From assembly GCA_947492955.1 (NCBI GenBank), contig CANLOV010000009.1, forward strand, positions 1-64,000: a stretch of DNA of 64,000 nucleotides. The letters are read 5' to 3'. The translations under genes and the position numbers were made by a program. Positions within the stretch are counted from its first letter, which is position 1. Every line of letters starts with the position of its first letter. The notes below the pieces were generated by a model that did no database searches, was not told the DNA's origin, and saw only the letters and a program-made list of their open reading frames with translations. The stretch comes from an uncultured Cellulophaga sp. GTDB taxonomy: Bacteria > Bacteroidota > Bacteroidia > Flavobacteriales > Flavobacteriaceae. Below are positions 22,672-40,600 of the stretch, piece after piece.

Positions 22672-25512
22672 TTAATGCGCTACCAACCAATTTTCGCCAA
22701 GCCCTAATTCTACATCTAAAGGAACTGCAAGTTGGTAAGCATTTTCCATTTCTGTTTTAATTAGAGTTTGCATTTCTTCTAGCTCTGGTTTGTATACGTC
22801 AAAAACTAATTCATCATGCACTTGTAATAACATTTTAGTTTTGTAATTGCTGTTTTTTAATTTTTTATGAATATTAATCATAGCAATTTTAATAATGTCT
22901 GCAGCACTACCTTGTATAGGTGCATTTACTGCATTACGTTCTGCTGCGCCACGAACAATGGCATTATTACCATTAATATCTTTTAAGTAACGACGACGAC
23001 CTAAAACGGTTTGTACATATCCATTATCGCGAGCAAAATCTACTAGTTCGCTCATATAATTACGTAGCTTAGGGTAAGTTTTGTAATAGGTGTCTATTAA
23101 TTCCTTTGCTTCGGCTCTAGATAAGTCGGTTTGGTTGCTTAATCCAAAAGCAGAAACACCATATATAATTCCAAAGTTTACAGTTTTGGCATTGCTTCGT
23201 TGTTCTCTGGTAACGTCATTAATAGCAACATTAAAAACTTTAGATGCTGTTGAAGTGTGAATGTCTTCTCCGTTTTTAAAAGCTTCAATCATAGTAGTTT
23301 CATCACTTAAAGCCGCAATAATACGAAGTTCTATTTGGGAGTAATCTGCTGCTAATAAAGTATAATCCTCATTTCTAGGAACAAAAGCTTTTCGTACTTG
23401 TCTTCCGCGCTCTGTTCTAATAGGTATATTTTGTAAATTAGGATTGTTGCTACTTAAGCGCCCAGTAGCGGCAACTGTTTGCATATAATCCGTATGTACT
23501 CTTTGGGTGCTTTCTTTAATCTGCTCGGGCAAAGCATCAACATAAGTGCTTTTTAATTTAGCAAGTCCACGATAATCTAATACGTTCTTAATAATTTCAT
23601 GGTCTTTAGCTAAATAAGAAAGTACATCTTCTGCGGTAGAATACTGACCTGTTTTTGTTTTTTTAGGCTTGTCTACTAGTTTTAGTTTTCCAAAAAGAAT
23701 TTCTCCTAGTTGTTTTGGAGAGGCAATATTAAACTCTTCGCCAGCTGCTTCGTAAATTTTAGTTTCTAAATTTTTTATATCAGTATTTAAATCTTCAGAA
23801 AGTGAATTTAAAAAAGCCTTGTCCAGGTTAATGCCCTCGAGTTCCATATCTGCTAAAACATGTAAAAGTGGAATTTCAATATCATTAAAAAGTCCATCTG
23901 TTTTAGCTTCTTTTAATTCGGGTTTAAAATGTTGTGCTAATTGAAAAGTAATATCAGCATCTTCAACGGCATACTCAGTTTGTTTTTCTAAAGGAACATC
24001 TCTCATACTTAATTGGTTTTTTCCTTTTTTACCAATAAGTTCTGTGATAGATACTGGGGTGTAGTTTAAGTAGGTTTCGGCTAAAACATCCATATTATGG
24101 CGCATATCTGGGTTAATTAGATAATGTGCCAACATGGTATCAAAACACTTGCCTTTAACGGTGATATTGTACTTGTGTAATACTTTTATATCGTATTTTA
24201 AATTCTGACCTATTTTTTCAATTTCTTCGGCTTCAAAGAAAGGGCGTAGTTGCTCAATAATTTCTTGTGCTTCATTTTTATTCTCTGGGAATGGTATATA
24301 AAAACCTTTACTAGCTTCCCATGAAAAAGCGATTCCTACTAATTCTGCAGTTAATGGGTTTAAGCCCGTAGTTTCAGTATCAAAACATACCGAGCTTTGT
24401 TTCATTAAGTTCTGAATAAATAATTTCATAGCCATACCAGAAGCAACACTTTGGTAAACATGTGCTGTGTCTTTTATGGTTTTTCTACTAGAAAATACTT
24501 CTGCGTTTTCGGGAGTATTAGAAATATCTCCTCCGAATAAAGAAAATTGACCAACGCCAGCTTCTTTGGTTGGTTGCTTTTTTGGAGTTACCTTTTCGGT
24601 ATTAGTTTCTTCTGTTGAGACTTTTTGGCTAAAAAAGAGTTTGGTGAATTGATCTTTAAGTCTTCTGAATTCTAGTTCTTCAAATATTTTCTGAACCCCT
24701 TCATTATCAGGAACAGACATTTTGTAGTTGTCTGCGTTAAAAGTAACATCGCAATCCAAGGCAATAGTAGCTAATTTTTTAGAAAGAAGCCCTAGTTCTG
24801 CATTTTCAATTACTTTTTCTTTCATTTTTCCTTTTAGCTGATCGGTGTTTGCTAAAAGTCCTTCCATTGAATCGTAAAGTTCTATAAACTTTTTGGCAGT
24901 TTTATCTCCAACGCCTGGTAATCCTGGGATGTTATCACTAGCATCTCCCATCATTCCTAAATAATCTATAACCTGCTCGGGGCGTTGTACACCAAAACGC
25001 TTCTGTATTTCAGGAATTCCCCATATTTCTATACCATTACCCATACGAGCAGGTCTGTACATAAAAATATTGTCGGATACTAACTGCCCAAAATCTTTAT
25101 CGGGAGTTACCATAAAAACTTTGTAATCTTCTTTTTCTGCTTGCTTTGCTAGTGTTCCAATGATATCATCGGCTTCCCATCCAGGTAGCTCTACTACTGG
25201 GATGTGCATTGCATTTAGTATTTCCTTTATATATGGGACTGCAATTTTTATAGCCTCTGGTGTTTCTTGTCTGTTAGCTTTGTATTCGGGGAAAAGTTCT
25301 GTGCGTTCTGCGCTACCACCTTTGTCAAAACAAACGGCTATGTGGTCTGGTTTTTCTCTTTTAATAACATCAAAAAGAGAATTAGTAAAACCCATTATTG
25401 CAGAGGTGTCCATTCCTTTAGAGTTTATTCTTGGATTTTTAATTAAAGCGTAATATCCTCTAAAAATAAGTGCAAATGCATCTAGTAAAAAAAGTCTCTT
25501 TTGGTCTGCCAT
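22672..25512 (-). CDS. polA: DNA polymerase I
   Basis: Repair and Okazaki-fragment polymerase, 946 residues, with all three domains. The 5' nuclease covers 1 to about 290 (LFLLDAFALIFRGYYAL, ELPGWEADDIIGTLA, GLPGVGDKTAKKFIE). The 3'-5' exonuclease starts near 374 (CFDTETTGLNPL, NLKYDIKVLHKY and YAVEDADITFQLA); its acidic residues are kept, so proofreading is likely active. The family A polymerase includes LLAADYSQIELRIIAALS (motif A), RSNAKTVNFGIIYG (O helix) and LQVHDELVFDV (motif C). Convergent with the lipoproteins and divergent from the metallophosphoesterase. Confidence 0.98.
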   Translation of the reverse strand: MADQKRLFLLDAFALIFRGYYALIKNPRINSKGMDTSAIMGFTNSLFDVIKREKPDHIAVCFDKGGSAERTELFPEYKANRQETPEAIKIAVPYIKEILNAMHIPVVELPGWEADDIIGTLAKQAEKEDYKVFMVTPDKDFGQLVSDNIFMYRPARMGNGIEIWGIPEIQKRFGVQRPEQVIDYLGMMGDASDNIPGLPGVGDKTAKKFIELYDSMEGLLANTDQLKGKMKEKVIENAELGLLSKKLATIALDCDVTFNADNYKMSVPDNEGVQKIFEELEFRRLKDQFTKLFFSQKVSTEETNTEKVTPKKQPTKEAGVGQFSLFGGDISNTPENAEVFSSRKTIKDTAHVYQSVASGMAMKLFIQNLMKQSSVCFDTETTGLNPLTAELVGIAFSWEASKGFYIPFPENKNEAQEIIEQLRPFFEAEEIEKIGQNLKYDIKVLHKYNITVKGKCFDTMLAHYLINPDMRHNMDVLAETYLNYTPVSITELIGKKGKNQLSMRDVPLEKQTEYAVEDADITFQLAQHFKPELKEAKTDGLFNDIEIPLLHVLADMELEGINLDKAFLNSLSEDLNTDIKNLETKIYEAAGEEFNIASPKQLGEILFGKLKLVDKPKKTKTGQYSTAEDVLSYLAKDHEIIKNVLDYRGLAKLKSTYVDALPEQIKESTQRVHTDYMQTVAATGRLSSNNPNLQNIPIRTERGRQVRKAFVPRNEDYTLLAADYSQIELRIIAALSDETTMIEAFKNGEDIHTSTASKVFNVAINDVTREQRSNAKTVNFGIIYGVSAFGLSNQTDLSRAEAKELIDTYYKTYPKLRNYMSELVDFARDNGYVQTVLGRRRYLKDINGNNAIVRGAAERNAVNAPIQGSAADIIKIAMINIHKKLKNSNYKTKMLLQVHDELVFDVYKPELEEMQTLIKTEMENAYQLAVPLDVELGLGENWLVAH

Positions 25513-25669
25513 TTTAATAAAATTATTAGGGAGATAAAACTACAAAACTTATTTCGTTTCAGGGGTAGTTTTTTAGATATGTAAAGGACTTCATTAATTT
25601 TAGTTAATTATTATAGAAATTATACGTCTAAATAAATCAAAGAAATATCTTTACATTAAAAAGAAAGGA

Positions 25670-26902
25670 ATGTTAATGCGTATTGTAGTTTTTGTGTCTG
25701 TTTTTATGTTGCTAAGTTTTTACGCCTTTCAGGCAATTAAGAATGTTACAAAACAACAATGGGTGTATTGGTTGTATATTTTGGTAACAATTGCTGCTAT
25801 AGGGAATTTGGTTTATCAATTTTTTTTAGCAGATGATGTTACTAGGGAAATGACAAAGCCTAAAACATATGCTTTTACCTTTGTAATGATATTGTTTGTT
25901 TTTCAGTTATTTACAGTAGCGTTTCTTTTTTTAGAAGATATTATTCGTTTTTTTATTGGGGGGTATTATAAAATAGTTGGTGAAACAGGAAATTTTTATT
26001 TGCCATCGCGCAGAAATTTTTTAAGTAAAATAGCCTTAGGGATAGCGGCTATACCATTTGGTGCTTTGCTTTACGGAATGTATAAGGGGAAGTATAATTT
26101 TAAGGTTTTAAAATATGAGTTAGCCTTTGATGATTTGCCTGATTCTTTTGATGGATATCAGATCACACAAATATCAGACATACATAGTGGTAGTTTTGAT
26201 GATAAAAAGAAAATAGAATACGCAATTGATTTAATTAATGAGCAGCAAAGTGATGCGCTTTTTTTTACGGGTGATATGGTAAATAATAAAGCAGAAGAAA
26301 TGTTGCCGTGGAAATCTGTTTTTGCAAAATTAAAAGCAAAAGATGGTAAATATTCTGTTTTAGGAAATCACGATTATGGAGATTATGTGGATTGGGAAAG
26401 TAAAGCAGCTAAAGAAGCTAATTTAGAAGATTTAAAACGAATACAGAAAGAGATAGGTTTTGATTTGTTGTTGAACGATAGTCGATTTTTGCAAAGAGGG
26501 GCTGATAAAATTGCTTTAGTAGGGGTAGAAAATTGGGGTAAAGGAGGTTTTAAAAAAGCAGGTGATTTAAAGAAAGCGGCATCAGCTATTACTAAAGATG
26601 ATTTTAAGATATTATTGAGTCATGATCCGTCTCATTGGGAGCAACAGGTAATTAGCGATGATTATCATTATCATCTTACCTTAAGTGGTCATACTCATGG
26701 TATGCAGTTTGGAATAGAAATTCCGGGATGGATTAAGTGGAGTCCTGTAAAATGGCGTTATAGGTACTGGGCTGGTATTTATAAAGAAATGGGGCAGTAT
26801 ATTAATGTAAATCGTGGTTTTGGCTTTTTAGGGTACCCAGGTAGGGTTGGTATATGGCCAGAAATAACAGTAATTACGTTAAAAAAGAAAAGCTTAACTT
26901 GA
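25670..26902 (+). CDS. Membrane-anchored metallophosphoesterase
   Basis: A 410-residue calcineurin-like phosphoesterase. Three to four N-terminal helices (about 1-23, 33-51, 67-90, 118-141) anchor a catalytic domain carrying the full metal-binding set: SDIHSG near 168, FTGDMVNN near 199, LGNHDYGD near 230, LLSHDPSHW near 320 and LSGHTHGMQFG near 338. This layout is found in YkuE/YaeI-like enzymes that act on membrane phospholipid or UDP-sugar lipids; the substrate here is unknown. The catalytic side cannot be fixed from sequence alone. An alternative ATG lies two codons downstream. Confidence 0.88.
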   Translation: MLMRIVVFVSVFMLLSFYAFQAIKNVTKQQWVYWLYILVTIAAIGNLVYQFFLADDVTREMTKPKTYAFTFVMILFVFQLFTVAFLFLEDIIRFFIGGYYKIVGETGNFYLPSRRNFLSKIALGIAAIPFGALLYGMYKGKYNFKVLKYELAFDDLPDSFDGYQITQISDIHSGSFDDKKKIEYAIDLINEQQSDALFFTGDMVNNKAEEMLPWKSVFAKLKAKDGKYSVLGNHDYGDYVDWESKAAKEANLEDLKRIQKEIGFDLLLNDSRFLQRGADKIALVGVENWGKGGFKKAGDLKKAASAITKDDFKILLSHDPSHWEQQVISDDYHYHLTLSGHTHGMQFGIEIPGWIKWSPVKWRYRYWAGIYKEMGQYINVNRGFGFLGYPGRVGIWPEITVITLKKKSLT

Positions 26903-26940
26903 ATTTAACTCTTGAAAATAGCGCAAAAAGCGTATGATTG

Positions 26941-26970
26941 CTTGTTTTTTATGATTTTTTCTTACATTTG
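26941..26970 (+). promoter_or_regulatory. Bacteroidota-type promoter of the thioredoxin-like gene
   Basis: CTTG (26941-26944), 18 nt, then TACATTTG (26963-26970), matching TAnnTTTG. It lies 22 bp before the ATG at 26993, so the leader would be short. Confidence 0.7.
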
Positions 26971-26992
26971 AATTATAACCTAATGATTTCGT

Positions 26993-27289
26993 ATGTCTAA
27001 ATTTGGTGAACTTATAGATTTAAAGATACCAGTACTGCTAGATTTTTATGCAGAATGGAGTGAGCAATCTACAGATATGCATGCTGTGTTAAAAGATGTG
27101 GCAGCTGCCCTAGGAGATAAAGGAAAAGTTATAAAGATTGATGTAGATAAAAACAAAGAACTCTCAGAAGCACTAAGGGTAAAGGGCTTGCCAACACTTA
27201 TTATTTATAAAAAAGGAGAAATGGTTTGGAGGCAAAGCGGGGAGCAAGATGCCAATACTTTAATAGGTATTTTGAACGAGTATATCTAG
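26993..27289 (+). CDS. Thioredoxin-fold protein lacking the active-site cysteines
   Basis: A 98-residue protein with a clear thioredoxin frame: VLLDFYAEW at about 14-22, then KVIKIDVDKNKELSEALRVKGLPTLIIYKKGEMVWRQSG, keeping the cis-Pro of GLPT and the following strand. The redox site is changed: the position of WCGPC reads WSEQS, and the protein contains no cysteine. It therefore cannot perform thiol-disulfide exchange and more likely serves as a binding or chaperone module. No signal peptide. It has its own promoter and ends at the 48-bp palindrome. Confidence 0.87.
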   Translation: MSKFGELIDLKIPVLLDFYAEWSEQSTDMHAVLKDVAAALGDKGKVIKIDVDKNKELSEALRVKGLPTLIIYKKGEMVWRQSGEQDANTLIGILNEYI

Positions 27290-27310
27290 TTTAAAATAAT
27301 ATTTTAAGAT

Positions 27311-27358
27311 ATAAAACAAAAAATCAGGATGTGTACACATCCTGATTTTTTGTTTTAT
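27311..27358. terminator. Perfect 48-bp palindrome, bidirectional terminator
   Basis: Arms 27311-27334 and 27335-27358 are exact reverse complements with no unpaired spacer. The core AATCAGGATGTG/CACATCCTGATT is flanked by A-rich and T-rich ends. It lies between the converging thioredoxin-like and DUF2723 genes. Confidence 0.92.
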
Positions 27359-27373
27359 GGCAGTGGGTGTTTT

Positions 27374-30300
27374 TTACTGCTGAGAAATAGTGTCTATTTC
27401 TATAGAGTCCGAATCTCTTAATTCCATAGGGGCTTCATTTTCCTCTATAAGTTCATCATTATAAAAGTGTCTAAAATTATCTATATACTCATTAAAAATT
27501 AGTGTTTCTTTTTCCGCAACATCTCTGTCTTTGTTTTGTATTAAGATATCTATGTTTCTTCTGTAAGCTTGCATATCGCCTAAAATATCTTCTATATTCT
27601 TGTATTGTTCATCTTTGGGGCTGCTAGCATAGTAACTTAAACGTTCTTGGTATTTGGTTTTAAGTTGGTGGTATAAAGCCCTGGCTTTTTCTGTTTCTCC
27701 TACCTTGTAATAGCCTTCTATAAAAGGTTCTACAAAAGCATAATATCCAAAATAATCAACAGGCATGTTGGTCATAGCAATATCTATAACCTCTTTTGCT
27801 TTTTCTATTTTGTTTTCGTTAATTAATGTTTCTGTTAGCCTGGCAAGGTTGCCTCTAAAAGATAAACCTTGTGTTCTTGTTTGGGTGTCGTGGTATATGT
27901 CTGAACTTCCAGAATTACCCCAATCCCATTTTTTAACAATATTGTACATTAAGTCAGCATCAATACGTCCCATTTCATAAGGGCTTTCGTTTTTGGTTTT
28001 AATAGGAACTAATTTGTATACTAAACCATCTAACTGTAAGTAATCTTTCATCCAAATATATTCTCCTTTGTCAAAGCTGCCGCCAGAAAAATAAATAGGG
28101 CGTTTCCAGTCGTTATTAGCTATAATGTCTAACATCATAATTCTATTTTTCGGAAGTGCATTTTTAGGTAGGTCAATATCAATATAGTCTACAATTAAAG
28201 CAGAGTCTTTTTCTTTTACTAATCCGCTTTCTAAAACATTCTTCTTGTTAACAGGAACCCTTATTTTATTAGTTGGGTAGTAAATTATGTTTAGATTGCT
28301 TTCAGGGTATTCGCTTAAGTCTGCTCCTCGTTGCTGTAAATAATACTTAAATTTTGTTTGCGGTTTGTCGCTTCCTATCCAATTCATGAAATCTTTGATG
28401 TTCCATCTGTTATCGGTAGCTTCCATATGGTATACGGCATCTCTAGATCCGTATTTATACTTGTCGTGTGTTAATTGAGAAGGTATAGGTTCACTTTCGT
28501 AAGCTTTGCTTTTCATTTGATCGATATACCAATCTGTAGCAAATAAACTTGTGTTTATAACGCGTACATCTGTTCTGTATTCCTCAATTTCTTGCACATA
28601 CCATAAAGGGAACGTGTCATTATCTCCGATAGTAAATAAGATGGCTCCTGCATCCTCCTGTGTAGAGCCTAAGTATGCTTTTGCTGTTGATCTTGCGGTA
28701 AAACGATTAGAGCGATCGTGGTCGTCCCAGTTTTGGTAAGCCATAAGGCTAGGGACAGCTAAAAGGCATATTGCCGTAATGGCAGGGGCTAATGTTTTTG
28801 GATTGATAATTTTTCTAAACTCATCAAATAAACCATAAACGCCAATACCTATCCATATAGCAAATACATAAAAAGAACCTACTAAAGAATAGTCTCGTTC
28901 TCTGGGTTGAAAAATGCCCGGATTTGTATAAAATTGTATAGCTAAACCAGTGAATAAAAAGAAAACTAATAATGCCCAAAAATGTTTTGGATGTTTGCTA
29001 ACATGAAACACTAGTCCTATAATACCTAATAAAAAGGGTAAAAAATAATAGGTATTCCTTCCTTTGTTGTTCGCGATATCACTAGGTAGGTTGTCTTGGC
29101 TACCCCTAAGGTAGTTGTCTATAAAGCCAATGCCGCTTATCCAGTTTCCGTGGTTATTGTATCTACCTTGAATATCATCTTGCTTCCCTGTAAAGTTCCA
29201 CATAAAATAGCGCCAATACATATATCCAAATTGGAAATCTAACATATAATTTATGTTGTCTATAATGCTTGGCGGTAGTACATCTATGTATTCGCTAAAA
29301 TCTCTAAGGAATTTAATGTACTGGTCCTCTTTAATTTCACCTTCTGCTAAGCCTTGTCTAAATTGTTGAATGGCGCTTCTTAGTTCTTTATTGCCCATAT
29401 ACTCGGGCTTTATTTTAAAATTAAGAACTCCATAATACTTCATGTAATTTTCTGTATTCTGCTCGCTCCACATTCTTGGTAAAAAACCAATGTGCTTTTT
29501 GTTGGGGCCTGGGACAGCATTTTTGTAGTCGTTAACTATAACGTATTTACCTAATTTTTCATCTTTTTCATATTTAGGCTTGTCGTCTCGTTCTTTGCCA
29601 TTAGGGGCAAAAGTATCAGAGTAATAAGCGCCATAAATAGGGCTGTCTACGCCAGGATATTGTTCTCTATTGTAATAGGCTAAAAGAGATCTAGCATCAG
29701 AAGGGTCATTTTCGTTAATAACAACATTTGCATTTGCTCTAATAGGTAGCATTAACCAAGAAGAAAATCCTAGAAATAAAAACATAAAACACAATGTAAT
29801 AGTGTTTGCGGTTTTAAAATTATTTTTACGAGTGTAATTTAGGGTATAATAAAAAACACCAATAAAAATTAGTCCCATTATAATGGTGCCAGAATTAAAT
29901 GGTAAGCCAATGGTATTAATAAAGAAAACCTCGCTCCAACCAAAAACTTTTAAAACGTAGGTTAAAGAGAATTTATATACTAACATTAAAATAGCTACTA
30001 CGGCAATATTGGCTAGTAAAAAGTTTTTAATTGTAACTGTTTTGTATTTTTTAAAATAGAATAATAGGCCAATTGTAGGGATGGCTAAAAAGCCCATAAA
30101 TTGTATTCCGAATGTAAGTCCTACAACAAAAGATATCAATATAATCCATCTATTGCCACGCGGGTTATCTATTTCATCGGTCCACTTAAGTCCCATCCAA
30201 AGTAATGCGGCCATAATAAAACTGGCCATAGAGTATACTTCTGTTTCTACGGCATTAAACCAAAAACTGTCAGAATAAGTAAAGGCTAAAGAGCCAACAA

Positions 30301-30676
30301 GTCCGCTTCCTAATACAGCAATTGCCTTGCTATTTGTAAAAGCTTCTTTTTTAGTAATAAGTTTTTTTGTAAGGTTGGTAATGGTCCAAAACATAAATAA
30401 AATGGTAAAAGCACTAGATATACCAGATAAGTAGTTTACCATTCTTGCTATTTGGTCTGCTTCTAATGCAAATAATGCAGCAAAAGCACCTAGCATTTGT
30501 AATAAAGGAGCTCCGGGCGGGTGACCAACTTGTAGCTTTGCTGAGGTGGTTATGTATTCTCCTGCATCCCAAAAACTACCTGTAGGTTCTACTGTAATGC
30601 CATAAGTAACAAGGGCTATAAAAAAAACAACCCATCCTAGGGTTATGTCCCATTTTTTAAAATCTTTAGAAAACAT
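27374..30676 (-). CDS. DUF2723 membrane protein, probable GT-C glycosyltransferase, with TPR-like C-terminus
   Basis: A 1100-residue inner-membrane protein. The N-terminal half has about 12 helices and the DUF2723 hallmark near residues 36-57: DAGEYI followed by HPPGAP after a short gap, a luminal acidic motif like that of GT-C (PMT-type) mannosyltransferases. A long soluble segment follows, containing a sugar/metal-type motif FTIGDNDTFPLWY near 675. The C-terminus is helical with TPR-like repeats (IEKAKEVIDIAMTN, ETEKARALYHQLKTKYQ). Human TMEM260 of the same family is a protein O-mannosyltransferase, so a role in Bacteroidota protein O-glycosylation is plausible but unproven. Confidence 0.85.
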   Translation of the reverse strand: MFSKDFKKWDITLGWVVFFIALVTYGITVEPTGSFWDAGEYITTSAKLQVGHPPGAPLLQMLGAFAALFALEADQIARMVNYLSGISSAFTILFMFWTITNLTKKLITKKEAFTNSKAIAVLGSGLVGSLAFTYSDSFWFNAVETEVYSMASFIMAALLWMGLKWTDEIDNPRGNRWIILISFVVGLTFGIQFMGFLAIPTIGLLFYFKKYKTVTIKNFLLANIAVVAILMLVYKFSLTYVLKVFGWSEVFFINTIGLPFNSGTIIMGLIFIGVFYYTLNYTRKNNFKTANTITLCFMFLFLGFSSWLMLPIRANANVVINENDPSDARSLLAYYNREQYPGVDSPIYGAYYSDTFAPNGKERDDKPKYEKDEKLGKYVIVNDYKNAVPGPNKKHIGFLPRMWSEQNTENYMKYYGVLNFKIKPEYMGNKELRSAIQQFRQGLAEGEIKEDQYIKFLRDFSEYIDVLPPSIIDNINYMLDFQFGYMYWRYFMWNFTGKQDDIQGRYNNHGNWISGIGFIDNYLRGSQDNLPSDIANNKGRNTYYFLPFLLGIIGLVFHVSKHPKHFWALLVFFLFTGLAIQFYTNPGIFQPRERDYSLVGSFYVFAIWIGIGVYGLFDEFRKIINPKTLAPAITAICLLAVPSLMAYQNWDDHDRSNRFTARSTAKAYLGSTQEDAGAILFTIGDNDTFPLWYVQEIEEYRTDVRVINTSLFATDWYIDQMKSKAYESEPIPSQLTHDKYKYGSRDAVYHMEATDNRWNIKDFMNWIGSDKPQTKFKYYLQQRGADLSEYPESNLNIIYYPTNKIRVPVNKKNVLESGLVKEKDSALIVDYIDIDLPKNALPKNRIMMLDIIANNDWKRPIYFSGGSFDKGEYIWMKDYLQLDGLVYKLVPIKTKNESPYEMGRIDADLMYNIVKKWDWGNSGSSDIYHDTQTRTQGLSFRGNLARLTETLINENKIEKAKEVIDIAMTNMPVDYFGYYAFVEPFIEGYYKVGETEKARALYHQLKTKYQERLSYYASSPKDEQYKNIEDILGDMQAYRRNIDILIQNKDRDVAEKETLIFNEYIDNFRHFYNDELIEENEAPMELRDSDSIEIDTISQQ

Positions 30677-30786
30677 TTGCTTTTGTAATTTACCAATTGA
30701 GGCGAAAATACTAATTAAAATAGATATTCATATAAGTTTTTAGTAAACCTTTAACTCAATATTTTTTCATTTTGTTTGCAAAAATA

Positions 30787-30817
30787 TTTGCAGATATAAA
30801 ACATTGTTTTAAATTTG
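30787..30817 (+). promoter_or_regulatory. Bacteroidota-type promoter of tRNA-Gln
   Basis: TTTG (30787-30790), exactly 19 nt, TAAATTTG (30810-30817): a full match to the consensus. It is 18 bp before the mature tRNA 5' end. Confidence 0.85.
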
Positions 30818-30835
30818 CACGCTCTTAATGATTAA

Positions 30836-30907
30836 TGGCCCATGGTGTAATTGGCAACACTCCGGTTTTTGGTACCGTCATTCAAGGTTCGAGTCCTTGT
30901 GGGCCAA
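30836..30907 (+). tRNA. tRNA-Gln (TTG)
   Basis: A 72-nt cloverleaf. Acceptor TGGCCCA pairs with TGGGCCA (30900-30906), discriminator A; D-stem GTGT/ACAC; anticodon loop TTTTGGT with anticodon TTG; T-arm CAAGG-TTCGAGT-CCTTG. The outermost anticodon-stem position is a C-U mismatch in my alignment. CCA is not encoded. It has its own promoter and terminator. Confidence 0.95.
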
Positions 30908-30920
30908 CAAAATTTAAGAT

Positions 30921-30955
30921 AATCCTGGTACTTTTATTAGTGTCAGGATTTTTTA
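30921..30955 (+). terminator. Terminator after tRNA-Gln
   Basis: Stem AATCCTG (30921-30927) / CAGGATT (30944-30950) followed by a T-rich tail, beginning 13 bp after the tRNA. Confidence 0.8.
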
Positions 30956-31034
30956 TTTTATAGTTTTTGCAGTCGAGAGGAAAAAACTTAATAATTTCTT
31001 GGGTTTTAAGTAAAGTAAGATTATTTCTTAAAAA

Positions 31035-31064
31035 TTGATAGATACATAAAAAGTTGTATATTTG
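31035..31064 (+). promoter_or_regulatory. Bacteroidota-type promoter of rimP-nusA-infB
   Basis: TTG (31035-31037), 19 nt, TATATTTG (31057-31064), matching TTG-N19-TAnnTTTG. A start near 31070 would give a leader of about 60 nt containing the hairpin at 31094-31118. Confidence 0.82.
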
Positions 31065-31093
31065 CAGCGCTGAAAGAATATATCGGTATTCAT

Positions 31094-31118
31094 GAGGGGA
31101 CTATTTGTCCCCTCTTTT
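31094..31118 (+). promoter_or_regulatory. Terminator-like hairpin in the rimP leader (candidate attenuator)
   Basis: A perfect 8-bp stem GAGGGGAC (31094-31101) / GTCCCCTC (31107-31114) with loop TATTT, immediately followed by TTTTATT. It lies between the promoter at 31035-31064 and the rimP ATG at 31132, so it is transcribed in the leader. It has the form of an intrinsic terminator, which would make it an attenuator for the operon that encodes NusA. The regulatory role is inferred. Confidence 0.65.
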
Positions 31119-31131
31119 ATTACTAAAATTT

Positions 31132-31593
31132 ATGCTGAAGGAAAAAGCAAAAAAGCTCTTAGAAGAAGCGTTGGCGGAGAATGAATCACTTTTCTTGATA
31201 GATTTTAAAGTGTCGTCAGGAAATAAAATAGATGTGGTTTTAGATGGTGATAATGGAGTTACTTTAAAAGACTGTATGGCAGTAAGTAGGGCTATTGAAC
31301 ATAATTTAGATAGGGAAGAAGAGGATTTTTCTTTAGAAGTGGCATCGGCAGGTGCTTCGTCTCCTTTAAAAATGCCAAGGCAGTACAAAAAAAATATAGG
31401 AAGAAAGCTTGAAATTAGAACTAAAGATGCTAGTTTTGAAGGAACAATAACAGTTGCTACGGAAGAAAGTGTTACGTTAGAGTGGAAAGCAAGAGAACCT
31501 AAGCCAATAGGCAAAGGAAAAGTAACAGTACATAAAAAGCAAGAAATAGCAATTTCTGATATAGAAGAGGCTAAAGTTGTATTAAAATTTTAA
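31132..31593 (+). CDS. rimP: Ribosome maturation factor RimP
   Basis: A 153-residue 30S assembly factor. The N-terminal domain has FLIDFKVSSGNKIDVVLDGDNGVTLKDCMAVSRAIEH in RimP order (key part: DGDNGVTLKDCMAVSR), then DFSLEVASAGASSPL, equivalent to the usual EVSSPG segment, and a C-terminal SH3-like domain. I chose ATG 31132 (MLKEKAKKLLEEAL). An upstream in-frame TTG at 31105 falls inside the leader hairpin and adds non-family residues. First gene of rimP-nusA-infB, 13 bp before nusA. Confidence 0.94.
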   Translation: MLKEKAKKLLEEALAENESLFLIDFKVSSGNKIDVVLDGDNGVTLKDCMAVSRAIEHNLDREEEDFSLEVASAGASSPLKMPRQYKKNIGRKLEIRTKDASFEGTITVATEESVTLEWKAREPKPIGKGKVTVHKKQEIAISDIEEAKVVLKF

Positions 31594-31606
31594 TAGAAGT
31601 TCAAAA

Positions 31607-32839
31607 ATGGAAAACATTGCGCTAATTGAATCTTTCTCAGAATTTAAAGATGATAAATTCATAGATAGAGTAACGCTAATGGCGATTTTGGAAGATGTGT
31701 TCAGGAACGCGTTAAAAAAGAAATTTGGATCAGATGATAATTTTGATATTATTATAAACCCAGATAAAGGAGATTTAGAAATTTGGAGAAATAGGATAGT
31801 TGTAGAAGATGGTGAAGTAGAAGAGCCTAATGAAGAAATTTCGCTTTCTGAAGCGCGTAAAATTGAGCCAGATTTTGAAGTAGGAGAAGATGTGTCAGAG
31901 GAAGTTAAGTTGATAGATTTAGGGAGAAGGGCTATTTTAGCATTGCGCCAAAATCTAATTTCTAAAATTCATGAGCACGATAATACAACGATATACAAGC
32001 AGTTTAAAGATTTAGAAGGAGAGATTTATACAGCGGAAGTTCACCACATACGTCACAAGGCAATTATTTTGTTAGATGATGAGGGGAATGAGATAATTTT
32101 ACCAAAGGATAAGCAAATCCCAGCAGATTTCTTTAGAAAAGGAGATAATGTTCGTGGTATTATTGAAAGTGTAGAGTTAAAAGGTAATAAACCAGCTATA
32201 ATAATGTCTAGAACATCGCCTCTGTTTTTAGAGCAATTGTTCTTTCAGGAAATTCCAGAAGTGTTCGATGGTTTAATTACTATTAAAAAAGCAGTTCGTA
32301 TTCCAGGGGAAAAAGCAAAAGTGGCGGTAGATTCTTATGACGATAGAATTGATCCTGTTGGAGCTTGTGTAGGTATGAAAGGTTCTCGAATCCATGGAAT
32401 TGTAAGAGAATTAGGGAATGAAAATATTGATGTAATTAATTGGACAGCGAATTCGCAGTTATTAGTTACTAGAGCATTAAGTCCGGCTAGGGTATCATCG
32501 GTTAAGTTAGATGATGAAAAAATGACAGCACAGGTTTATCTTATGCCAGAAGAGGTTTCTAAGGCTATAGGTAGAGGAGGTCATAATATTAGATTGGCTG
32601 GTCAATTAACTGGTTATGAGATAGATGTATTCCGTGAAGGAGTAGAAGAAGATGTTGAGCTTACTGAGTTTTCTGATGAAATAGAAGGCTGGGTAATAGA
32701 AGAGTTAAAGAAGGTAGGTTTAGATACGGCAAGAAGCGTATTAGAACAAGATGTACAGGATTTAGCAAAGCGAACTGATTTAGAAGAGGAGACAATTTTA
32801 GAAGTTGTGCGTGTACTAAAAGAAGAATTAGAAGATTAA
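31607..32839 (+). CDS. nusA: Transcription termination/antitermination protein NusA
   Basis: Elongation factor binding RNA polymerase and nascent RNA; it affects pausing, termination and antitermination. At 410 residues it holds the N-terminal polymerase-binding domain (LIESFSEFKDDKFIDRVTLM), the S1 domain around 130-200 (GEIYTAEVHHIRHKAIILLDD) and KH domains (DPVGACVGMKGSRIHGIVRE near 247; EVSKAIGRGGHNIRLAGQLTG near 312). The acidic C-terminal repeats of E. coli NusA are absent, as is usual outside gammaproteobacteria. infB follows after 45 bp. Confidence 0.97.
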   Translation: MENIALIESFSEFKDDKFIDRVTLMAILEDVFRNALKKKFGSDDNFDIIINPDKGDLEIWRNRIVVEDGEVEEPNEEISLSEARKIEPDFEVGEDVSEEVKLIDLGRRAILALRQNLISKIHEHDNTTIYKQFKDLEGEIYTAEVHHIRHKAIILLDDEGNEIILPKDKQIPADFFRKGDNVRGIIESVELKGNKPAIIMSRTSPLFLEQLFFQEIPEVFDGLITIKKAVRIPGEKAKVAVDSYDDRIDPVGACVGMKGSRIHGIVRELGNENIDVINWTANSQLLVTRALSPARVSSVKLDDEKMTAQVYLMPEEVSKAIGRGGHNIRLAGQLTGYEIDVFREGVEEDVELTEFSDEIEGWVIEELKKVGLDTARSVLEQDVQDLAKRTDLEEETILEVVRVLKEELED

Positions 32840-32884
32840 GCTATATATTAGCAGCATATTATAAGAAATAGGAATTGATTGTTT

Positions 32885-35701
32885 ATGGCAGATAATGCAA
32901 CAATAAGACTTAATAAAGTCCTAAGGGAACTAAACATTTCGTTGGACAGGGCGGTAGATTTTCTTTCATCAAAAGGGCATGAAATAGAAGCAAGACCCAC
33001 TACCAAAATATCTGATGAAGTGCATCAAGTTCTGTTGGATCAATTTCAAACAGATAAGAGTAAGAAGGTTGCCTCTAAGGAAGTTGGTGAAGAAAAACGA
33101 AAAGAGAAAGAGGCAATAAGGATTCGCTTAGAGCAAGAACAAGAAGAGAGAAGGCTAGCTAGAGAAAAAAGAGCAGCTCAACAACAAGTTGTTAAAGCTA
33201 GAGGTGAGCTTTCTGGTCCTAAAACCGTTGGTAAAATAGATTTAGGAGGAAAAAAGAAAGAAGAAGTAAAAGAAGTTGCTCCGGTAGAGCCTGTTAAAAA
33301 AGAGGTTGTAGAAGAAAAAGTGGAGCAAACAATCTTGCCTACAGAAAAAGTAAAACTTTCTGGTCTTAAAACTGTTGGGAAAATAGATTTAGGGGTAGAG
33401 AAAAAACAGGCGAAGCAAAAGAAAGAAGCGCCAAAAAAAGAAGAAGAAAAAGTTGTTTCTCCTGAGGTGGTAGCTAAAGATGAGGTTGTAGAAGAGAAGC
33501 CGAAAGAGGAAACAATAACAACGCAGTATAAAAAATTATCTGGTCCTAAAATTACGGGAGATAAAATAGACCTTACAAAGTTTGAAAAGCCTAAGAAAAA
33601 GAAAGAGGCTCCAAAAGCTAATGATGGTGCAGATAAAAAGAAGCGTAGAAAAAGGATAGTTGCTAAACCGGGTCAGAAAACAAATGGCGGTCCTGGTGGA
33701 GGTAATAGGCAAAGATCAGGAGGTAATAACAGACCTGGAGGTCCGGGAAGAAGAGGTCCAGGGCAACGTTTTAATCAAGCTCCAAAGGTTGAGCCTTCAG
33801 AAGAAGATGTTCAAAAGCAAGTACGTGAAACCTTAGAAAAGCTTCAAGGGAAGTCTAAAAAAGGTAAAGGTGCTAAGTATAGAAGAGATAAAAGAGATCA
33901 ACACCGTCAGCAGACAGAGAAAGATCTAGAGCAGAAAGAATTAGAAAGCAAAATCTTAAAGGTAACAGAGTTTGTTACGGCTAGCGAGGTTGCAGTAATG
34001 ATGGATGTTTCTACAACACAGATTATATCTGCTTGTATGTCACTAGGGATTATGGTAACAATGAACCAGCGTTTAGATGCTGAGACATTATCTATAGTAG
34101 CAGATGAGTTTGGTTATGAGGTAGAGTTTGTTTCTGCTGATATAGAAGAAGCAATAGAAGAAGAAGTAGATGCGCCAGAAGATTTAGAGGCTAGAGCTCC
34201 TATTGTAACAGTAATGGGGCATGTGGATCATGGTAAAACATCGCTGTTAGATTATATTAGAAAAGAAAATGTAATTGCAGGAGAGAGTGGTGGTATAACG
34301 CAGCATATTGGTGCTTATGGTGTAACACTAGAAAGTGGTCAGAAAATAGCATTTTTAGATACACCGGGTCACGAAGCCTTTACGGCAATGCGTGCACGTG
34401 GTGCGCAAGTAACAGATATTGCAATTATTGTTGTTGCGGCAGATGATGATATTATGCCACAAACAAAAGAAGCTATTAGTCATGCGCAAGCAGCAGGAGT
34501 TCCTATTGTTTTTGCAATTAATAAAATAGATAGACCAACAGCTAACCCTGATAAAATTAAAGAAGGTTTAGCGCAAATGAACTTATTGGTAGAAGATTGG
34601 GGGGGTAAAATACAATCTCATGATATCTCTGCTAAAATGGGTACAGGTGTTAAGGAGTTGTTGGAGAAAGTATTGTTAGAAGCAGAGCTTTTAGAATTAA
34701 AAGCAAACCCAAATAAATTGGCAGTAGGTACTGTAGTAGAGGCTTTCTTAGATAAAGGAAGAGGTTATGTTTCTACGATATTAGTGCAGTCTGGAGAGCT
34801 TAAAATTGGAGATTATGTATTAGCGGGTACTTGCAGTGGTAAAATTAAAGCAATGCAAGATGAGCGTGGTAATAATGTTAAGAAAGCAGGTCCTTCTACA
34901 CCAATATCAATATTAGGTTTAGATGGTGCGCCGCAAGCTGGTGATAAGTTTAAGGTTCTAGAGGATGAAAGAGAGGCGAAACAAATTGCAGCAAAACGTT
35001 CTCAGTTAATGAGAGAGCAATCTGTAAGAACGCAACGTCATATTACATTAGATGAAATAGGAAGACGTATTGCCCTTGGAGACTTTAAAGAGCTTAATAT
35101 TATACTTAAGGGTGATGTTGATGGTTCTGTGGAAGCATTAACAGATTCTTTCCAGAAATTATCTACAGATGAAATTCAGGTAAATATTATACATAAAGCA
35201 GTTGGTCCTATTACAGAATCCGATGTGTTATTGGCTTCGGCTTCTGATGCAATTATTATAGGGTTTAATGTAAGGCCAATGGGTAATGCTAGGTCTATTG
35301 CTGAGAATGAAGAAATAGATATTAGAATGTATTCTATTATTTATGATGCAATTAATGATCTTAAGGATGCTATGGAGGGAATGCTTTCTCCAGAGATGAA
35401 AGAGGAAATTACGGGTACTGCTGAAATTAGAGAAACATTTAAGATTTCTAAAGTGGGTACTATTGCAGGTTGTATGGTAACTAATGGTAAAATAATTAGA
35501 AGTTCTGGTATTAGACTTATTAGAGATGGTGTAGTTATTTACACAGGAGAATTAGCGTCTTTAAAACGATTTAAGGATGATGCTAAAGAAGTGTCTAAAG
35601 GATATGATTGTGGTTTACAGATTAAAAACTACAATGATATTAAGGAATTAGATATTGTTGAAGGATTCCAAGAAGTGGCTGTAAAAAAGAAGTTAAAGTA
35701 A
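32885..35701 (+). CDS. infB: Translation initiation factor IF-2
   Basis: GTPase that brings initiator tRNA to the 30S subunit. ATG 32885 ([16 protein letters not shown]) is preferred over an in-frame TTG two codons upstream. The N-terminal part has the IF2_N motif, then a Lys/Glu-rich region with three copies of [12 protein letters not shown]-type repeats (33206-33575) and a Gly/Arg/Asn patch. The G domain starts with [14 protein letters not shown] near 442-455, followed by DTPGHEAF and NKIDRP. Domains II-IV are complete. 938 residues, long-N-terminus type. Ends at the hairpin at 35726-35756. Confidence 0.97.
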
Positions 35702-35725
35702 CAATAGCAGCTTAAAATTTATAAT

Positions 35726-35756
35726 AAAAAAACGACCTATTTGGTCGTTTTTTTTG
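35726..35756. terminator. Bidirectional terminator between infB and SPOR gene
   Basis: AACGACC (35731-35737) / GGTCGTT (35743-35749) with a flanking A-run and T-run and a 5-nt loop. It overlaps the 3' end of the convergent SPOR gene. Confidence 0.88.
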
Positions 35757-36108
35757 GTTTTAAAAGCATTGCGTTTGGGTATTTTTTTCGAACTTCAATT
35801 AGTTTCTGTTCGGCTTTTAGTTTTGTTTTAAACTTTCCAACTCTAACCCTGTAACTTGGAGATTCAAAATCTATTTTTGAATACCATCCAGGAAAATCTA
35901 CATCTACCTTGTTTTTTATGTTCTGTGCTTTTTGGAAAGACCCAAAGAAAACTTGTATGCGATAAACATTAGAATTTTCGTTAGAAGATGAATAAATGTC
36001 AATTAATTCAGTTATTTTTTCATCTTGTTCAATAGAAATTTCTCCATTTTGTGAAAAACCAACAAATGTTGATAGGGATAATGTTATAGTGTAAATGATT
36101 TTTTTCAT
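35737..36108 (-). CDS. SPOR domain-containing exported protein
   Basis: A 123-residue protein with a signal peptide (1-19, ending TFVGFSQ) and a single C-terminal SPOR-like domain at about 47-118: YRIQVFFGSFQKAQNIKNK, then SYRVRVGKFKTKLKAEQKL, the typical two-repeat pattern of peptidoglycan-binding SPOR domains. SPOR domains bind denuded glycan strands at division sites. The mature protein is little more than this domain, so it may be a small periplasmic peptidoglycan binder. A -7-like TACTTTTG lies upstream (36144-36137). Confidence 0.87.
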   Translation of the reverse strand: MKKIIYTITLSLSTFVGFSQNGEISIEQDEKITELIDIYSSSNENSNVYRIQVFFGSFQKAQNIKNKVDVDFPGWYSKIDFESPSYRVRVGKFKTKLKAEQKLIEVRKKYPNAMLLKPKKTTK

Positions 36109-36243
36109 TTCTTATGTGTTGTATTTGAGTAGTTAGCAAAAGTAAATTAATAAACTAAAAGTAGTGTGTTTTTCATTTATTTAGAATAATTATAAATTAA
36201 AAAATAACAACTCATTAACATTTTCAAAATAAAGTCTAAGTCG

Positions 36244-36251
36244 TATTTTTG
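36244..36251 (+). promoter_or_regulatory. Candidate -7 promoter element of the act/cox operon
   Basis: TATTTTTG matches TAnnTTTG and lies 84 bp before actA. The expected -33 position reads TTT rather than TTTG, so it is a partial match. Confidence 0.5.
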
Positions 36252-36335
36252 TCGCCAATTTAAAAGGCATTTTTGTTTACTTAAAAGAAGAGTATAAAAT
36301 ATCATGCCAAGATTTCGATAAGAAATATTTTTAAT

Positions 36336-37658
36336 ATGAAAAAGGTTCCATACCGTAATCAACTTTCAAAGTTTGCAGCTGCCACTCTGGTAGCTCTTTT
36401 ATTGTTTTCAGTTTCAATTTTTGCGCAAGAAGATGCGAAAAAGGGAAAACAATTATTTAATCAGAATTGTGCAGCATGTCACGCATTAGATCGTAAGATG
36501 ACAGGTCCGGCGTTAAGAAACGTTGAGGCTCGTTTAGAAGAAGAAGGTTTAGATCGTGAGTGGATTTATGCTTGGGTTAAAAATAGCTCTGGTGTAATTA
36601 AGTCTGGTGATGCTTATGCAAATAAAATCTACAATGAGTATAATAAAGCGGCAATGACTGCTTTTCCAACCCTTGCTAATGCAGATATAGATAATATATT
36701 AGCGTATACGGCTGCTGAGCCTGAGGTTAAAAAGCCTGTTGTGGTTGCTGGTGCAGGTTCGGGTGTTCAGGCAAGTGGTTCGTCTGGTGGGATTTCAAAT
36801 GAAATCATCCTGGGGGCTTTGGTTCTTGTTTTTGCTTTGTTGGTGTTAATGTTGTTTTTTGTTACAAAAACATTAAAGAATATTGCAGCGGCAAATGGGG
36901 TTTCTTTAGAGAAAGAGAAATCGGAAAAGCGTACGCCAATCTGGAAAGCTTTTGCGCAAAATCATTTCTTAATTATTGTTTCGGTAATTGTATTATTGTT
37001 GTCTAGTGCTTACTTTGTATATGGGTATTTTATGCAGGTAGGAGTTGATCAGGGGTATACGCCAATACAGCCAATACATTTTTCTCATAAAGTGCATGCT
37101 GGTGATAATAAGGTTGAGTGTAAATACTGTCACTCGTCAGCTAGGGTTTCTAAAACATCTGGTATTCCTTCTTTAAATGTTTGTATGAACTGTCATAAAT
37201 CTATTTATGAGTATAAAGGTAATGAGGCAGGTCCTTCTCAGGAAGATTTAGAAAACGGGTACACTAATGAGTTTTATACAAAAGAAATAAAAAAACTATA
37301 CAAGTATGTTGGTTGGGATGAAAACGAGCAGAAGTACACAGGTGAGCCTAAGCCTGTAGAATGGGTTCGTATACATAACTTGCCAGATTTTGCATACTTT
37401 AATCACTCTCAGCACGTATCTGTTGCTGGGGTAGAGTGTCAGACTTGTCATGGTCCTGTAGAGGAAATGGAGATAATGACACAGCATGCTCCTTTGACTA
37501 TGGGTTGGTGTGTTAATTGTCATAGAGAAACAAATGTGAAGGTAGAGGGTAATGAGTATTACGCTAAAATTCATGAAGAGCTTTCTAAGAAGTATGGAGT
37601 AGAAAATCTTACTGCTGCTCAAATGGGAGGTTTAGAATGTGGTAAATGTCACTATTAG
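36336..37658 (+). CDS. actA: Alternative complex III subunit A, six-haem cytochrome c
   Basis: A 440-residue membrane-bound multihaem cytochrome of the menaquinol-oxidising alternative complex III. Signal peptide 1-31. A monohaem domain (C45AACH) is followed by a first membrane helix near 151-173, a short loop and a second helix near 209-232. A pentahaem domain follows with CKYCH (262), CMNCH (283), CQTCH (368), CVNCH (392) and CGKCH (435). The classical ActA is pentahaem; here an extra monohaem module is joined at the N-terminus. First gene of actABCDEF. Confidence 0.93.
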   Translation: MKKVPYRNQLSKFAAATLVALLLFSVSIFAQEDAKKGKQLFNQNCAACHALDRKMTGPALRNVEARLEEEGLDREWIYAWVKNSSGVIKSGDAYANKIYNEYNKAAMTAFPTLANADIDNILAYTAAEPEVKKPVVVAGAGSGVQASGSSGGISNEIILGALVLVFALLVLMLFFVTKTLKNIAAANGVSLEKEKSEKRTPIWKAFAQNHFLIIVSVIVLLLSSAYFVYGYFMQVGVDQGYTPIQPIHFSHKVHAGDNKVECKYCHSSARVSKTSGIPSLNVCMNCHKSIYEYKGNEAGPSQEDLENGYTNEFYTKEIKKLYKYVGWDENEQKYTGEPKPVEWVRIHNLPDFAYFNHSQHVSVAGVECQTCHGPVEEMEIMTQHAPLTMGWCVNCHRETNVKVEGNEYYAKIHEELSKKYGVENLTAAQMGGLECGKCHY

Positions 37659-37695
37659 TCAATATTTAATAAGAAGATAATTTCAGATATATCAT

Positions 37696-40600
37696 ATGTC
37701 ATCAAACAAGAAATATTGGAAAAGCGAAGCGGAGTTAAATCCCAACGATTCCATTGTTGAGACGCTAAGACAGAATGAATTCGTTGAGGAGATTCCAACG
37801 GATGAGTTCTTAGGGGACAAAGAAAATTTGGCTTCTACTTCAACGAATAGAAGAGATTTTTTAAAGTATGTTGGTTTTAGTACTGCAGCTGCTACAATGG
37901 CTGCTTGTGAAGGGCCGGTAGTTAAGTCTATTCCTTATGTGGTTCAGCCAGAAAGTATTATTCCTGGTGTTGCTAATTATTATGCAACAACAATTGCAGA
38001 TGGTTACGATTTTGCTAGCGTTCTTATTAAAACACGTGAAGGTAGGCCAATTAAAGTAGAGAATAATACGGATGCTAAAGTAAACGGTAGTGCTAATGCT
38101 CGTGTGCAGGCTTCTGTTTTGTCTTTATATGACAGTACTCGTGTGCAAGGACCATTATTAAATGGAGAGCAAGTAGAGTGGTCTTCTTTAGATGCTGCTG
38201 TAAAATCTCAGTTAAAGTCAGGAAAGCAAGTTGCTTTGTTAACGCAGACTTACGCAAGTCCTTCAACAGCACGTTTAATTGCTGAGTTTAAAGCGGCTTA
38301 TGCAAATGTGAGTCATGTTACTTATGATGCTATATCGGAAGAAGCGGCTTTAAATGCTTTTGAGGCTAGATACGGAGAAAGAGCTTTAGCTGATTATGAT
38401 TTTGAAAAAGCATCATTGATTGTTTCTTTTGGTGCAGATTTTCTAGGAGATTGGCAAGGCGGAGGATATGATGCTGGTTATTCTAAAGGGCGTGTTCCTG
38501 CTCATGGCAAAATGTCTAGGCATGTGCAGTTTGAGGCTAATATGTCTTTGGCTGGTGCTAATGCAGATAAGCGTATTCCTTTAACGCCAAGTCAGCAAAA
38601 AGTTGCTTTGGCTAAATTATATGGAAAATTAAATAATGCTTCGGTTGGTGGTAGTTTGCCAGAAGTAATAGAGAAAGCAATTGATAGTGTTGCAAAGCAG
38701 ATTCGTAAGGCGGGTAATAACGCAGTAGTAGTTACTGGTTTAGACGATGCAAATGCACAAGCGGTAGTTTTAGCAATAAATGAGCAATTAGGAAGTAAGG
38801 CTTTTGATGCTAAAGCTCCTAAGTATGTAAGGCAAGGAAGTGCTAAGGCGGTAAATAAGCTTATTTCGGATATGAAATCTGGTAAGATTGGTGCTTTAAT
38901 TATGGATGGAGTAAATCCAGTATATAGTTTGCCTAATGCTTCTGATTTTGAAGAAGGCTTAAAACAAGTAGCATTATCTGTAACGTTTGCTCAAAATAAA
39001 AATGAAACAGCTGCGGTTTCGCAGTATGTTGCAGCAGCTCCACATTATTTAGAGTCTTGGGGAGATGTTCAAATGAAAAAAGGTTCGTATAGTTTAATGC
39101 AGCCAACGATTAAGGAATTGTTTGATACGCGTCAGTTTCAAACATCTTTATTAAAATGGTTGGGTAGCGATAAAACATACTACGATTATATAAAAGAAAC
39201 TTGGAATGTAGGTGTTTTAGCAAGTGCTAAATGGAACAAAGCATTACACGATGGTGTTTTTGTTGCCCCGGCAGTTGCAGTGGAAGTGAGTTCTGAAGAG
39301 GAAGAAGCTCCTTTAGTTTCTGTTAGTTCTGCAGTAAATGCATTATCTAAGTCAGCTGCTTCAGGAATGGAATTAACCTTATATCCTAAAATAGGAATGG
39401 GAGACGGTCAGCAGGCTAATAACCCATGGTTACAAGAGTTTCCTGATCCAATTACAAGAGTTTCTTGGGATAACTACGTTACTGTTTCTAAAGCTGATGC
39501 TGAGCGTTTAGAGTTCATTAATGAAAATGTGGCTAATGGAGGTTTAGATGGTAGTTATGCTACAGTTACTGTAAATGGAGTTCCTGTTGAAAATGTACCG
39601 GTAATTATTCAGCCAGGTCAGGCAGTAGGTTCTGTAGGTTTATCATTTGGTTATGGTAAAACTGCAGGTGTAAAAGAAGAAATGAAAACAGGGGTTAATG
39701 CATATGCATTATACCAAGGTTTTTCTAATATACAATCGGTTTCTATAGCGAAATCTGAAGGTACGCATGAGTTTGCATGTGTGCAGTTGCATAAAACATT
39801 AATGGGTAGAGGAGATATTATCAAGGAAACTACCTTGGAAATATTTAATACAAAGAAAGCGGCAGAATGGAATGTTCAGCCTGTAGTTTCTTTAGATCAC
39901 CAAGAGGTGGCAGCTACCGAAGTAGATTTATGGGATAGTTTTGATCGTTCAATAGGACATCACTTTAATTTATCTATAGATTTAAATGCTTGTACAGGAT
40001 GTGGTGCATGTGTTATAGCATGTCATGCAGAAAACAATGTGCCAGTAGTTGGTAAAGACGAAGTTCGTAGATCTAGAGATATGCACTGGTTGCGTATAGA
40101 TAGGTATTATTCATCAGAGGATACTTTTGAAGGTGATAATGCTAAGAAAAATGGTTTTGATGGTTTATCTGGTGATAATGGTTCTCTTGGAGGATTCTTA
40201 GAATTAGAAGATCCTGCTGCTAATCCGCAAGTTGCTTTTCAGCCTGTAATGTGTCAGCACTGTAACCATGCTCCTTGTGAAACTGTATGTCCAGTAGCGG
40301 CAACATCACATGGTAAGCAAGGGCAAAACCAAATGGCGTATAACAGATGTGTGGGTACAAGATATTGTGCTAACAACTGTCCTTATAAAGTACGTCGTTT
40401 TAACTGGTTCTTGTATAACAACAATGATGAGTTTGATTACCATATGAATAATGATTTAGGAAAAATGGTAATTAATCCAGATGTAAACGTACGTTCTAGA
40501 GGTGTTATGGAGAAATGTTCTATGTGTATTCAAAGTACACAGAAAACTATCTTAGACGCTAAAAGAGATGGGCGTGTTATTAAAGATGGAGAATTCCAAA

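Follow-up and report, generated by a model that had tools for sequence, protein, structure and literature searches.

The window, i.e. the whole stretch of 64,000 nucleotides that was analysed, derives from a Cellulophaga-like flavobacterium and carries on its forward strand the genes rimP (31132..31593; ribosome maturation factor, 153 aa), nusA (31607..32839; 410 aa) and infB (32885..35701; IF-2), the last with an ATG at 32885 that is a likelier start than the TTG at 32879 given in the ORF list. The initial annotation had described a rimP-nusA-infB operon that encodes NusA, and this assignment is borne out by the ORFs and by Pfam, which confirms all three proteins (RimP_N and DUF150_C in RimP, NusA_N and KH_5 in NusA, IF-2 in the infB product), with the KH_NusA_C match falling below its cut-off. 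In 165 of the 166 loci for which flanking DNA was available, rimP shares its locus with a nusA match.

The neighbour on the 5' side of the rimP unit is a tRNA-Gln(TTG) gene (30836..30908, forward strand; ARAGORN and Rfam), and a terminator-like hairpin detected by pattern scan (30921..30950, forward strand) lies between this gene and the rimP promoter. The gene for an 1100-aa TMEM260-like membrane protein (PF11028; 27374-30676, reverse strand) is divergent from the tRNA-Gln/rimP unit. On the 3' side of infB, a strong, near-symmetrical terminator hairpin flanked by A and T runs is found at 35726-35754, possibly serving both converging genes.

The leader of the rimP-nusA-infB operon

The leader element, which lies entirely on the forward strand, starts with a Bacteroidota-type promoter (31035..31064) composed of TTG at 31035-31037, a 19-nt spacer and TATATTTG (TAnnTTTG) at 31057-31064, that is, the Bacteroidota -33/-7 pair. 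Folding places a weak, lineage-specific pre-stem, GAATAT/GTATTC, at 31076..31091; the corresponding GRATA..TATTC was found in 85 of 100 close relatives tested and is missing from part of Cellulophaga itself. The terminator-like stem follows, with the 5' arm GAGGGGAC (31094..31101), the loop TATTT (31102..31106), which varies in length and sequence among relatives, and the 3' arm GTCCCCTC (31107..31114); both arms are identified by sequence, pattern scan, folding and covariation. The tail after the 3' arm, TTTTATTACT, consists of TTTT at 31115-31118 and then ATTACT, and from sequence and geometry its U-tract TTTTATTA (31115..31122) is the expected site of premature termination, roughly at position +50 of the transcript.

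The perfect, GC-rich 8-bp stem followed by four T residues at 31094-31118, to which the initial annotation had drawn attention, is present with exactly these coordinates (six of the eight pairs are G-C), and its placement between the promoter and the rimP ATG at 31132 is likewise confirmed. The segment 31070-31150 folds with -23.2 kcal/mol (z -3.97), and none of 200 shuffled sequences is equally stable. The hairpin lies 17 nt before the rimP start, inside the range of 4-130 nt given for the rimP-leader of Naville and Gautheret; in some relatives, the distance exceeds 130 nt. A role of this hairpin as an insulator against the upstream tRNA gene is unlikely because tRNA-Gln has a terminator-like hairpin of its own and the rimP promoter intervenes.

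The scan of the region 25000-40000 yields 12 terminator-like sites compared to 8.1 +/- 2.7 in shuffles, the rimP-leader hairpin having the most G-C pairs (six) among the 12, and shows no enrichment of promoter-like sites (52 vs 52.7 in shuffles); taken by itself, this local scan is weak evidence for the hairpin. The significance of the hairpin rests instead on its conservation and covariation, described below, and on a control within the same genome. Among 456 kb, comprising the window and 20 further stretches of this genome, 64 genes have TAnnTTTG within 150 nt upstream, and rimP is the only one of these with a terminator-like hairpin between promoter and start; furthermore, the pattern GGGGACN{3,8}GTCCCC occurs at a single place in the 3.87-Mb assembly. 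The hairpin in the rimP leader is not a product of chance. We also considered whether a specially weak U-tract marks the hairpin as NusA-dependent. The rimP leader has 6 T of 8 compared to a mean of 5.66 at the 3' terminators of the genome, both groups having been pre-selected for at least 5 T and a terminator having been found at 29 of 62 convergent gene ends. Given this resemblance to ordinary 3' terminators, nothing marks the rimP U-tract as specially NusA-dependent, and this candidate was rejected.

Conservation and covariation of the hairpin in Bacteroidota

Searches for RimP gave matches in 69 of 80 relatives, 180 of 197 genomes of the class and 117 of 118 genomes of the phylum, from which we extracted the leaders of all 69 relatives, 70 leaders class-wide (the 30 best-scoring loci and 40 spread over families, with L139 and L140 coming from the window's own family) and 46 leaders from other classes. 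These were searched with a fold-based finder for a hairpin and a T-tract (at least 5 T of 8) no more than 150 nt from the gene start, with dinucleotide shuffles as controls. Such a hairpin was detected in 68 of the 69 Flavobacteriales rimP leaders (shuffles, 11/207), in 67 of the 70 class-wide leaders (19/210) and in all 46 leaders from other classes of the phylum (14/138). Over all shuffled leaders pooled, the finder fires in 44 of 555 (~8%), so that a few of the leader matches may be due to chance. A stricter first finder identified the hairpin in 65/69 relatives and 59/70 class-wide leaders within 150 nt and in 65/69, 61/70 and 32/46 leaders of the three sets within 170 nt; in L097 and L108, it chose a hairpin other than the GGGGAC one. 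Among 80 named Flavobacteriaceae-type relatives, the hairpin is no more than 150 nt from the start in 73 (shuffles, 4/80), and the other seven have the same stem 120-173 nt upstream.

Four leaders gave no match with the finder. L058 has a weak stem recognisable by eye, whereas in the rimP leaders of L127 and L131 no hairpin was seen by eye; in L115, a GGGGAC/GTCCCC hairpin with a T-tract is located 222 nt upstream of the assigned start, which may be misassigned, or the leader may be long. Four further leaders (L078, L097, L108 and L137) have their best hairpin at a distance of more than 70 nt from the start. The median distance from the T-tract to the start is 16 nt in the relatives, 18 nt class-wide and 31 nt in the other classes.

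The sequence of the stem changes outside Bacteroidia, where types such as AGTGGGG/CCCCACT, TCGCCC/GGGCGA and GTGAGCG/CACTCGC are found and 14 of 46 stems have a C-rich 5' arm, i.e. the opposite polarity. As judged from the leaders sampled, the phylum keeps a terminator-like structure at a similar place and not one sequence. Within Bacteroidia, the conservation of GGGGAC is stricter than would be required for a plain terminator. The pattern GGGGACN{2,8}GTCCCC was found at 63 sites in 55 of 80 genomes; 50 of these sites lie within 150 nt before rimP, one lies before nusA in G021, a genome in which RimP was not found, and 12 are elsewhere.

Covariation was analysed in an alignment of 111 hairpins, the distinct ones from the relatives and the class-wide set with duplicates omitted (outside this and the subset alignment below are the four leaders without a finder match and the four with a best hairpin more than 70 nt off). 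In this alignment, 94.5% of stem cells are paired, and pairing falls to 44-75% when the partner is slid along. Double-sided changes that stay paired number 61 compared to 11.6 +/- 2.9 in shuffled alignments, none of 500 of which is as high, and they occur at all eight stem pairs; these values are to be read with the caveat that the regions were picked for having a hairpin and that the shuffles ignore relatedness. The position before the closing C-G pair is occupied by A-U in 82 of the 111 hairpins and by G-C in 10. A subset of 96 hairpins, which omits 15 of the 111, among them L082 with its inverse core, gives 93.7% paired cells and 52 double changes vs 14.2, and RNAalifold recovers seven of the eight pairs from this subset unprompted. 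The initial annotation had proposed such alignments of rimP leaders, and a lack of stem conservation in related genomes would have refuted its reading; this refutation fails, as the stem is conserved and covarying in Bacteroidia, and the leaders sampled from the other classes of the phylum likewise have a terminator-like hairpin in this position.

A GC-rich stem near the 5' end can protect an mRNA, and the hairpin could accordingly be an element of translation control, mRNA stability or 5'-end protection and no terminator at all. The leaders with a poor T-tract would suit this reading: in L102 (511-553), L105 (284-327) and L108, the GGGGAC/GTCCCC stem is perfect and the T-tract poor. This combination agrees less well with a plain terminator and is a hint that the stem has a second role or that termination there has other requirements. 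However, 181 of the 185 leaders surveyed have a T-rich tail (at least 5 of 8) after the stem, a count to be read with the tail being part of the search rule, which finds it in 44/555 shuffles. Moreover, the distance from hairpin to start codon ranges from 8 to 113 nt, which is unlike an element that blocks the start site, and among the five inspected of the 12 sites elsewhere in the genomes of relatives, four resemble ordinary 3' terminators, the fifth being in coding sequence. A function other than termination is thus improbable.

The distance between promoter and stem varies little. TAnnTTTG is present upstream of the hairpin in 68/68 Flavobacteriales and 62/63 class-wide leaders measured. 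In Flavobacteriales, a median of 26 nt (IQR 23-28) separates its end from the stem, compared to 21 nt (IQR 17-25) class-wide; placing the end of the U-tract near +50 assumes that transcription starts ~5 nt after TTTG. The median leader fold is -17.7 kcal/mol. When the terminator pairs are forbidden, the median becomes -0.5 or 0 kcal/mol, and no leader out of 130 can form another fold within 4 kcal/mol. This lack of a competing fold speaks against a riboswitch or a classical antiterminator in the leader, and both were rejected. After the inferred start and ahead of the stem, an ATG is found in 46/68 Flavobacteriales and 25/62 class-wide leaders; with respect to a leader peptide, the ATG at 31092 is ACG in the same-genus relatives L005, L007 and L012.

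Loci without rimP and candidate readers of the hairpin

In the 28 genomes without RimP, the search with PF02576 at E<=10 gave no match above the cut-off, and 10 of them have sub-threshold matches (1/11 and 9/17). From the genomes without a RimP match, 25 nusA loci were obtained, of which four were set aside: L143, which is at a contig edge, and L312, L313 and L320, where the ORF that immediately precedes nusA (154-225 aa) probably encodes a divergent RimP. The sub-threshold PF02576 matches include L312 and L320, and both have a hairpin before that ORF.

Fifteen of the 21 loci counted have a hairpin with a T-tract no more than 150 nt from nusA (shuffles, 6/210). In L142, L310 and L318, the hairpin is farther off, with the T-tract 145, 245 and 139 nt from nusA, respectively; L324 has a weak 5-bp stem recognisable by eye; and L148 and L323, from very small genomes, have no hairpin before nusA. 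In L147, which is among the 15, the hairpin is 107 nt away from nusA, with an apparent second promoter between the two. Three of the 15 come from genomes that are 86-88% complete, where rimP could sit in the missing part, the nusA locus itself being without it. The 15 loci span seven families of the survey (f1, f6, f12, f31, f38, f58 and f74), which makes several losses of rimP likely. An apparent, repeated loss of rimP with retention of nusA was noted for L141, L144-L147, L308-L311, L314-L319, L321 and L322.

These apparent losses serve as natural deletion experiments, and they favour NusA, or the entire operon, over RimP. That RimP, or a ribosomal signal relayed by it, binds the stem and controls termination is an alternative left open in the 2010 description of the rimP-leader (PMC2965389), and it would agree with the strong conservation of the stem sequence inside Bacteroidia and with the element lying directly before rimP, which comes first among the operon genes both in the window and in the extracted leaders. 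It is nevertheless highly unlikely. The hairpin stands before nusA in the 15 loci, from seven families, where rimP is missing, and this retention, which argues against RimP as the sensor and fits NusA, is the main ground on which RimP was rejected; in addition, the other classes, which do have rimP, possess unrelated stems, 14 of 46 with opposite polarity. The hairpin could also be read by IF2 or by a factor outside the operon.

A candidate feedback attenuator and its known relatives

The primary study of NusA autoregulation in Bacillus subtilis is reportedly that of Mondal et al. from 2016. According to a 2025 review, NusA of B. subtilis is autoregulated by termination in its leader (PMC12288461), and like that nusA operon, the one described here has an intrinsic terminator in the leader; NusA dependence, however, is reported for B. 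subtilis, whereas we infer it for the Bacteroidota hairpin. In Streptococcus agalactiae, a short rimP leader RNA ends 31 nt after the start site and feedback by NusA has been proposed (PMC4448216). The terminator is very near the start site in both cases; for this Firmicute, the +31 end is backed by RNA evidence, and for Bacteroidota, termination is expected near +50 from the sequence. The Escherichia coli operon is also reported to be under NusA control (PMC6511841).

The closest description is that of the rimP-leader (Naville and Gautheret, 2010; PMC2965389), a short terminator of the G-rich/C-rich type located 4-130 nt ahead of the gene in the 5' UTR of rimP-nusA-infB, with no antiterminator in its general form and with NusA proposed as the best candidate sensor. 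The window locus shares the position in the 5' UTR of this operon, the structure of a hairpin followed by a stretch of T and the lack of an antiterminator. The stem motif of the rimP-leader is GGGc(...)gCCC and that of the window GGGGAC(...)GTCCCC, so that GGG/CCC is present, with an A-U pair before the closing C-G; in the other classes of the phylum, the stems are unrelated to the motif or C-first. The word 'Bacteroidetes' does not occur in the main text of that paper, the supplement of which may list some members (PMC2965389). In Flavobacterium psychrophilum, a structured rimP leader that is conserved in other genera and has no Rfam hit has been listed (PMC9723704) and is probably the same element as the hairpin in the window; the text of that study covers the family and gives no mechanism, whereas the present analysis follows a hairpin in this position across the phylum and interprets it as a terminator. 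Neither rimP nor nusA is mentioned in the main text of the transcriptome study of Bacteroides thetaiotaomicron (PMC7366714).

The Rfam family RF01770 (rimP; 102-position model, gathering score 47) has no match in the window, and at E<=10 its 47 matches in the whole genome include none at the rimP locus and none that reaches the cut-off. The cut-off is passed in one of 14 control genomes, and at the rimP locus Rfam gives sub-threshold matches only. Because the cut-off is not reached, the hairpin is not filed under RF01770.

Taken together, these data suggest that the hairpin is probably a promoter-proximal intrinsic terminator that acts as an attenuator of rimP-nusA-infB, with NusA as the likeliest regulator; the start site, termination at the hairpin and control by NusA in Bacteroidota are what we infer from the leaders and from other bacteria. 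RNA polymerase would start near 31070 and make a leader of ~50 nt, and at the hairpin and U-tract it would either terminate or read through into the operon. Since no alternative fold was detected in the leader, this choice probably depends on the degree to which elongation factors promote termination. The likeliest of these factors is NusA, which the operon encodes and which is known to stimulate termination at hairpins: a rise in NusA would increase termination and lower the operon mRNA. Such feedback is supported by the retention of the hairpin before nusA where rimP is not found and by the mechanism being stated for B. subtilis and proposed for S. agalactiae.

An intrinsic attenuator could also be driven by another input, such as NusG, Rho or the speed of the polymerase (nucleotide pools, (p)ppGpp), or could provide a fixed, low and unregulated read-through. 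The leader is short and has no visible ligand-binding part, and any factor that alters termination would act at such a hairpin; the fall of an E. coli rimP leader-plus-ORF fusion in a Rho mutant (PMC7815308) indicates that other factors can matter. However, the hairpin remains with nusA where rimP is missing, rimP ranks first among the genes most often attenuated (PMC2965389), which suits an operon-specific link better than a generic setting, and B. subtilis provides a precedent for NusA (PMC12288461). An input other than NusA is, accordingly, possible but rather unlikely.

A more elaborate version of NusA feedback, which we put forward tentatively and consider doubtful, combines a phylum-wide switch made of a bare terminator with a second, sequence-specific role of the stem added in Bacteroidia, e.g. 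a direct contact with NusA or the ribosome. The second role is suggested by the GGGGAC stem in this class, which is conserved past the demands of pairing and persists in a few genomes that have a poor U-tract. If this were true, the sole conserved feature would be a terminator ~50 nt into the nusA operon, the stem sequence of which was swapped freely between classes, even in polarity, and which survived repeated loss of rimP.

That NusA feedback can operate through a leader terminator is already known from other bacteria, and the Bacteroidota hairpin is most likely a further, well-supported example. What is new is that the hairpin extends across the phylum, that its stem sequence turns over and that it is retained before nusA without rimP; in the open-licence literature searched, supplements apart, no paper was recognised on the extent across Bacteroidota or on this retention. 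The results suggest that a core transcription factor is under feedback control throughout the Bacteroidota, a phylum that has a promoter type of its own and in which Shine-Dalgarno sites are few, and the leader would serve as a ready natural reporter of NusA activity.

The presence of a tRNA gene ahead of the operon was also noted at some other loci. ARAGORN detected tRNA-Gln in four of the six rimP-less nusA loci scanned (L141, L144, L145 and L146, not L142 and L147) and in none of the three scanned loci with rimP (L002, L023 and L031). In E. coli, a tRNA gene, metY, also heads the rimP-nusA-infB operon (PMC6511841).
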